The notes below the pieces were generated by a model. The model was not told where the DNA came from. It did no database searches and saw nothing but the letters and a program-made list of their open reading frames with translations. From positions 56,973-120,972 of the forward strand of contig NZ_BBPQ01000016.1 of NCBI RefSeq assembly GCF_000787855.1: a stretch of 64,000 nucleotides of DNA. Reading direction: 5' to 3'. A program made the translations under genes and the position numbers. Of the stretch, positions 43,106 to 44,780 are shown one piece after another (within the stretch, counting starts at the first letter, position 1; every line of letters begins with the position of its first letter). The stretch is from Streptacidiphilus anmyonensis. Lineage in GTDB: Bacteria; Actinomycetota; Actinomycetes; Streptomycetales; Streptomycetaceae.

Positions 43106-43148
43106 TTACCCGACCCTACCGTTGCGCACCGACATGCCGGACCGCCGC

Positions 43149-43538
43149 TCACCGGCCGAGCATGTGGCGCAGATCCTTGGCCGCAGAGTCGATGTCGTCC
43201 GCGTAGCCACCCTGCGCGAGCCGCAACATGTACGCCACGGCATCGTCCGGGTGCGGCGCGACGTACGCCACCTCGTTGAGCTCCAGGAACAGGAGCATCG
43301 CCTCGAAGGCGGTCCGCTTGTTCCGGTCGATGAGGGCGTGGTTCCGAGCGATCGACTCTCCGAGCGCGGCGGCCTTGGTCCACAGGTCCGGGTAGGCGTC
43401 CACCCCGAACGTCGTGTACCTGGGGCGGCCGAGCGCGGACTGGAGGAGCCCGGGATCCCTGATCATGGACGAGCCGCCGAGAAGCTCCTTGATGTCGTCC
43501 AGCTCGATGTACTCGACCTCGTCCCCCGGTTCGGTCAC
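43149..43538 (-). CDS. Doc (death-on-curing) family toxin, Fic fold
   Basis: This 129-residue protein has the Fic/Doc signature HALIDRNKRT near residues 67-76; the usual phenylalanine of HxFxDxNKR is leucine. The N-terminal YIELDDIKELLGG and LLQSALGRPRYTTFG match Doc proteins. Phage P1 Doc phosphorylates EF-Tu, and this protein may do the same. The GTG start overlaps the stop of the upstream partner gene (GTGA), the usual antitoxin-toxin coupling. Confidence 0.9.
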   Translation of the reverse strand: MTEPGDEVEYIELDDIKELLGGSSMIRDPGLLQSALGRPRYTTFGVDAYPDLWTKAAALGESIARNHALIDRNKRTAFEAMLLFLELNEVAYVAPHPDDAVAYMLRLAQGGYADDIDSAAKDLRHMLGR

Positions 43539-43966
43539 AGCTCGGCCAGCCTCTCGAGCGTCTCCGCGTTCTCCTCACGGATCCGCTGGATCGCCCTGGC
43601 TCGACGCTCGGCGCGTCCCGAGCGGTCCTCCGAGGCCGGTTCGGCCGGCGCGGCGACAGGTTCGTCGAGCACGGGCCGAAGGATCTCGGACTCCCACCAT
43701 GTCTTCGGCCGAGGGGCGACGACTGGCTCCAGTATGGGCCGGACAGCCAGCAGCCAGGTTCGGAGATCCGGGGCTGCCAGGGCTACGAGCTTCAGAGCCG
43801 GTTCGAGGCCCCGGACGCGAAGCCGGTCCTCCTGGGACAGGTGACGGAGCAGCCGGGAGACCACGGCATCCGCTTGTTCGCCGGCCCCTTCGGTCGCGAC
43901 AACCCGCAGTTCCTCCGTCGGCTCTCCCTCATGGGGCAGTACGAGCCACTGCGTCTCGGTCGACAT
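43535..43966 (-). CDS. Putative antitoxin partner of Doc, non-Phd type
   Basis: This 143-residue protein is encoded just before the Doc-like toxin with a four-base overlap, the place of an antitoxin. It does not look like Phd/YefM or another common antitoxin fold. Instead there is an acidic N-terminal half with helices (ADAVVSRLLRHLSQEDRLRVRG), a central Pro-rich linker, and a C-terminal charged amphipathic helix (AERRARAIQRIREENAETL) that could bind the toxin. The ATG has GAGAGGAGG upstream. Its function is inferred from position only. Confidence 0.7.
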   Translation of the reverse strand: MSTETQWLVLPHEGEPTEELRVVATEGAGEQADAVVSRLLRHLSQEDRLRVRGLEPALKLVALAAPDLRTWLLAVRPILEPVVAPRPKTWWESEILRPVLDEPVAAPAEPASEDRSGRAERRARAIQRIREENAETLERLAEL

Positions 43967-44024
43967 GGGTGCCTCCTCTCACGATCCACGCTATCCGCGT
44001 CAACGGCCCTCCCACCAGAAATGT

Positions 44025-44038
44025 GCCCCGGTCGGGGC
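44025..44038 (-). terminator. Short GC hairpin between antitoxin gene and response regulator
   Basis: GCCCCG-GT-CGGGGC is a compact palindrome in the 124-base gap. No T-tract is seen, so its role as a terminator is only possible. Confidence 0.3.
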
Positions 44039-44090
44039 GCAGAGGGCCACAGGCTGGGTGCTCAGACGCCGTGCCGAACCCCGAGCCGGA

Positions 44091-44780
44091 TCAGGCTCGC
44101 CAGCGGTAGGCGAGTTCCGGGCGGCCCACCTGGCCGTACTGGGGTTCGCGGCGGGCGCGGCCGGTTTCGACCAGGTGTTCCAGGTAGCGGCGGGCGGTGA
44201 TGCGGGAGACGCCCGCGGCCGTGCCCACCGCCGCCGCCGAGAGGCCGGTGTCGGCTTCGCGCAGCACCGCGGCCACCGCGTCGAGCGTGGGCGTGGTGAG
44301 GCCCTTGGGCAGCGTGGTCCCGCGCGGGGAGCGGAGCTCGGCGAAGGCCTGGTCGACCTCGTCCTGGCCGAGGGCCTCGCCCTCGCGGTCGAGGCTGGCG
44401 CGGTAGCGCGCGTAGCGGGCCAGGCGGTCCTGGAGGGTCGCCGCGGCGAAGGGCTTGAGGACGTACTGCACCACGCCGATGGAGACCGCGCGTCGCACGG
44501 TCGCCAGGTCCCGGGCTGAGGTGACGGCGACGGCGTCCGCTCCGTGCCCGGCCGCGCGGATCGCGCGGAGGAGGTCCAGGCCGTGGCCGTCCGGGAGGTA
44601 GAGGTCGAGGAGGAGCAGCGCGACCGGCGCGCCCTCGCGGCGCGCGCGGTCGAGGAAGCGCAGCGCCTCCGCCGCGCTGTGCGCGACGCCCGCGCAGCGG
44701 AAGCCGGGGGCGCGTTCGACGTAGCTGCCGTGGGCCTCGGCGGCGACCGGGTCGTCCTCGACCACCAGCACGTCGATCAC
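44091..44780 (-). CDS. Response regulator, CitB/DcuR type
   Basis: This 229-residue regulator has an N-terminal receiver domain with VVEDDP acidic residues, the phosphoacceptor Asp near residue 59 (LLLLDLYLPDG) and the lysine in VLKPF. A linker and a C-terminal helix-turn-helix (GLSAAAVGTAAGVSRITARRYLEHLVETG) follow. This arrangement is that of CitB/DcuR regulators paired with CitA/DcuS kinases. It should control the divergent dicarboxylate transporter gene. Its start overlaps the kinase stop (ATGA). Confidence 0.93.
   Translation of the reverse strand: MIDVLVVEDDPVAAEAHGSYVERAPGFRCAGVAHSAAEALRFLDRARREGAPVALLLLDLYLPDGHGLDLLRAIRAAGHGADAVAVTSARDLATVRRAVSIGVVQYVLKPFAAATLQDRLARYARYRASLDREGEALGQDEVDQAFAELRSPRGTTLPKGLTTPTLDAVAAVLREADTGLSAAAVGTAAGVSRITARRYLEHLVETGRARREPQYGQVGRPELAYRWRA

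Follow-up and report, generated by a model that had tools for sequence, protein, structure and literature searches.

The doc locus described here, in a 64,000-nucleotide stretch of Streptacidiphilus anmyonensis DNA (the whole of which we call the window), probably encodes a type II toxin-antitoxin module with a chimeric antitoxin, in which a Doc-neutralizing tail is joined to an exchangeable front domain. Two genes on the minus strand make up the module. The upstream one (43535..43966, minus strand, ATG start) encodes a 143 aa partner, the putative chimeric antitoxin, and has the Shine-Dalgarno sequence AGGAGG five bases 5′ of its ATG. The second (43149..43538, minus strand, GTG start) encodes a 129 aa Doc-like toxin of the Fic fold, and the partner stop and doc start overlap by four bases in the sequence GTGA (43535..43538, minus strand). 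A preliminary description of this DNA had proposed a Doc toxin with an overlapping upstream gene for a 143-residue protein, and both ORFs are found as it placed them on the minus strand. The order of the genes, partner first and doc second, is the same in sister loci, and an overlapping, antitoxin-first gene pair with a patchy presence is what characterizes a type II toxin-antitoxin system. The partner occurs in one copy in its 9.4 Mb genome, and neither a sigma-70-type promoter nor a terminator could be found at the locus.

The Doc-like protein matches Pfam Fic (1.2e-12), the PHROG Doc-like toxin (1.8e-24) and solved Doc chains in the PDB (best 1.5e-8), and it scores 37.5 bits against NCBIfam DOC_P1 (TIGR01550), just below the cut-off of 38.65. 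Judged by these matches, the ORF is a genuine Doc and not a chance ORF, and the assignment is solid. The Doc family motif Hx[F/L]x[D/N]xNKR is present as HALIDRNKRT, with H67, D71, N73, K74 and R75 retained, and the protein is 65–69% identical to sister Docs. P1 Doc phosphorylates EF-Tu, and since the motif residues are kept, the window Doc, with its Fic fold, would be predicted to act in the same way on a target in translation, EF-Tu for instance. The Leu in place of Phe in the motif, which the preliminary description had singled out, is real but ordinary, being the commonest residue at this position: of the relatives whose motif could be read, 44 carry Leu, 9 Phe and 2 Met. The Arg after the catalytic Asp (DRN; Doc residue 72, window 43323-43325) is, among the relatives collected, exclusive to the window Doc clade, where every member with a readable motif has it; other relatives have DGN or NGN. 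Elsewhere in the window genome, two further Fic-domain matches lie in longer frames of 492 and 352 aa (L016 and L017).

Relatives of the window Doc came from two sources, named genome contigs (41 loci) and a set of 395 genomes of the class; of the latter, 159 gave a match and 30 were fetched. The gene directly upstream of doc encodes a short ribbon-helix-helix-type protein in most of the relatives examined, and the sampled partners match ribbon-helix-helix families in Pfam, mostly weakly to moderately. These ribbon-helix-helix partners are about 65–80 aa long and have tails such as AELNRRLA or GVLERLKDA. The earlier proposal of a non-Phd partner for Doc is supported, but such a partner is usual in the surveyed actinobacterial relatives, among which ribbon-helix-helix proteins are dominant. 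In our tree, 13 Docs from Streptomycetaceae, that of the window included, form one clade (support 99/95). Their partners are longer and have the common ending xxERRxxxVxRIREANAETLERLxxL; the relatives among which this clade falls have mostly ribbon-helix-helix proteins as partners. At one sister locus (L030:4001-4538) doc is broken, being split over two reading frames, next to an intact antitoxin-like partner.

The last ~27 residues of the partner (residues 117–143, 43538..43618, minus strand) are probably the Doc-neutralizing helix, to which sister identity, a tail matrix, the predicted structure and the Phd hot spots all point. Compared with the window partner, the partners at L018, L021 and L022 are identical at 22/27, 16/27 and 20/27 of these last residues, respectively, and their front parts are without significant similarity to that of the window partner. 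At the DNA level, the window resembles sister loci only in the 3′ part of the partner gene and in doc. A position matrix of the tail was trained on 41 ribbon-helix-helix Doc-partner tails only, none of them from the window clade, and the background was supplied by 3,219 unrelated ORFs of the fetched loci and not by a whole proteome. The window partner scored 20.8 and sister partners 6.8–17.8, the best unrelated ORF scored 6.5, and the other proteins reaching that level were solely tails of other Doc partners. The window score is lower than that of most trained tails (up to 46). By this matrix the partner has the characteristic tail of ribbon-helix-helix Doc antitoxins, and its sequence marks it as a divergent form of that tail. 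The Salmonella Phd tail, MDDEFAAIMAVHGNELRELADK, has hot spots at F56, I59, M60, H63, L67 and L70 (PMC9207808). In an ungapped, C-terminus-anchored alignment made by eye, which is supporting evidence only, these pair with I126, I129, R130, N133, L137 and L140 of the window partner, which is thus hydrophobic at four of the six positions, with M60 and H63 not kept. The predicted structure of the partner has a long helix at 115–142.

The N-terminal domain (residues 1–105, 43652..43966, minus strand) appears to be an exchangeable module of an undescribed family. Searches of Pfam, PADLOC and PHROGs with the partner gave no match, and NCBIfam gave one at chance level only, so that no credible hit to any family was obtained from the four. 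In particular, we found no Phd/YefM N-terminal domain (Pfam, NCBIfam), no ribbon-helix-helix domain (Pfam) and no Panacea domain, there being no Pfam match of any kind. We therefore call the front domain undescribed with respect to these four libraries and the open-licence literature. An undescribed antitoxin type had been suggested for the whole partner, and this holds for the N-terminal domain, unmatched in the libraries, but not for the tail, a divergent form of the ribbon-helix-helix Doc antitoxin tail that also resembles the Phd tail. The view of the N-terminal half as acidic and helical was roughly right, with a net charge of -5 over residues 1–105 and a predicted model (pLDDT 77.7, pTM 0.57) of two short strands and four helices, followed by the C-terminal helix. 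No PDB match below E 1 was obtained for this model with Foldseek, and neither a recognizable DNA-binding fold in the partner nor an operator was found. A PDB sequence search returned TAL-effector repeat chains (about 1e-4), which we rejected as repeats summed against a Leu/Ala/Val-rich stretch, since no single stretch passed.

To further support the exchangeable nature of this domain, a relative of it is found ahead of a toxin of another class. The window front domain is 34% identical over 98 residues (z 14.5 against shuffles) to the N-terminal part of a protein of 182 aa encoded in two genomes (loci L005 and L006) of the genus holding Kitasatospora humi. In both loci the gene for this protein is followed by an overlapping PIN-domain gene (PF01850, 4.4e-8), and we regard the two (L005:1477-2456 and L006:1477-2456) as a putative PIN toxin paired with an antitoxin-like protein that shares the front domain. 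No Pfam family matches the 182-aa protein, its hits elsewhere are at chance level, and its C-terminal part differs from that of the window partner (3/27 identical). The same genus includes a third genome with a truncated copy of the front domain (L012:1450-2601), in which the C-terminal part and the PIN gene have been deleted. The front-domain link thus comes from few loci, two with PIN genes and this truncated one. The truncated copy lies just upstream of a ribbon-helix-helix/Doc pair in which the motif His is replaced by Arg. The front domain was found in 4/395 genomes of the family, and neither the class sample nor 70 genomes from Kitasatospora humi's genus yielded another convincing copy. 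Weak matches in other actinobacteria (E 1e-4 to 1e-2) were set aside as partial, several having stops or, at the two loci inspected (L010 and L014), lying in frames antisense to other genes.

Within the 13-Doc clade, at least three mutually dissimilar front parts are found on the one conserved tail. Among 210 genomes, the type-B front domain occurs only at its known Doc locus. The model of the type C partner (L022) has a pLDDT of 66 and is too poor to interpret, and a type-C front-domain match in G207 was rejected as an acetyltransferase-like frame with no toxin seen adjacent. A constant tail on changing fronts, together with a front common to different tails and toxins, fits a modular antitoxin in which the tail neutralizes Doc, and on these sequence comparisons the front domain would fit a role other than Doc neutralization.

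In the module as we propose it, the tail helix (about 117–143) would occupy the groove of Doc in the manner of the Phd tail, placing I126, I129, L137 and L140 at the hot spots, while the N-terminal domain (1–105) would most likely give stability and dimerization, plus operator binding or a release trigger. It is also conceivable, if rather doubtful, that the front domains act as interchangeable sensors or triggers (responding to a phage cue, for example), making input-output chimeras of the Panacea kind on an undescribed domain. If so, one Doc clade would keep its toxin and tail and swap the front, and the same front would be lent to PIN toxins.

Other explanations of the partner were considered. 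It could be a ribbon-helix-helix or Phd antitoxin that has diverged so fast that its N-terminal fold has become unrecognizable, with no different domain involved, and both the resemblance of its tail to ribbon-helix-helix Doc antitoxin tails and the opening of its model with two strands, then helices, agree with this. We think it unlikely, however, as the partner has 143 aa compared to about 65–80 aa for ribbon-helix-helix antitoxins, its model places four long helices before the tail, it has no Pfam ribbon-helix-helix/Phd match, unlike the partners of sampled relatives, and sister partners bear yet other front parts. Alternatively, the cassette could have decayed to an inactive remnant, or Doc could have lost its activity, with the partner serving another function. 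The occurrence of the partner only once in its genome, the Arg for Gly/Ala in the DxNKR motif and the broken Doc at sister locus L030 could all be taken as signs of decay, but neither frame is interrupted, there is a good ribosome-binding site, the catalytic motif residues are kept in a Doc that is 65–69% identical to sister Docs, and the Arg is common to the whole Doc clade and therefore does not indicate recent decay; we consider this explanation quite improbable.

The pairing of a small Fic-fold protein with an overlapping upstream helical partner also recalls VbhA, which inhibits a Fic AMP-transferase through an S/TxxxE(G/N) helix. That the window partner acts in a VbhA-like way on a Fic AMP-transferase is nonetheless extremely improbable, given that neither the window partner nor any of four related proteins examined contains the [S/T]xxxE[G/N] inhibitory motif, and that the toxin has the Doc-type NKR motif and not GNGR.

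The chimeric antitoxin that we favour can be compared with several known systems. Like Phd-Doc of phage P1 and Salmonella, the window has a Doc toxin, an overlapping upstream antitoxin gene and a C-terminal helical tail as the likely neutralizer, but its N-terminal domain is not Phd and its toxin motif has Leu for Phe and Arg for Ala. The ribbon-helix-helix antitoxins of actinobacterial Docs share with it a similar tail, the gene order and related toxins; they have a short DNA-binding domain where the window partner has a longer, unrelated one. In Corynebacterium doosanense PanA, the Phd-C tail was shown experimentally to neutralize Doc, and the Panacea domain was dispensable once SUMO stabilized the tail (PMC10440598). 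PanA-Doc thus also combines a non-Phd front with a Phd-C-like tail against Doc, and its class of front is common to different toxins (PMC10440598), whereas the window partner is without a Panacea match and has another, rarer front domain. It has long been known that Doc pairs with antitoxins of several unrelated families, as in TasAB and other composite Doc systems, and in this the window resembles them (PMC1626090, PMC2701414). The partners named in the parts of those two papers on which we draw (MazE/AbrB, Xre, YhfG and Phd) were unmatched by the window front domain in the libraries searched. The modular logic proposed for the window partner has its precedent in PanA (PMC10440598).

The locus would provide a natural case of antitoxin modularity, with one Doc clade and one tail joined to several fronts, one of which also occurs with another toxin class. 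Such a system makes it testable which part of an antitoxin neutralizes the toxin and what the rest does (dimerization, operator binding, sensing), and the front domain is an additional undescribed domain to seek in genomes.

By comparison with congeners, the cassette extends over approximately 43140..44096, between a response-regulator gene and rarA. No match to the partner was found in the plasmids or phages searched, and the viral contigs held no relative of the front domain and none of the close Docs. In six congeners the response-regulator gene and rarA are separated by about 50–120 bp with no toxin-antitoxin match, and in a seventh (L107) an unrelated insert lies between them. Since the cassette is missing in the six and another insert is present in the seventh, the Doc cassette occupies a variable site, and the different insert at the same position makes this site resemble an insertion hot spot. 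This pattern of presence and absence suggests that the module travels as a small cassette into the variable site beside rarA. The insert of the seventh congener, by reading, contains genes for an XRE/cupin-type regulator and for an acetyltransferase-like protein.
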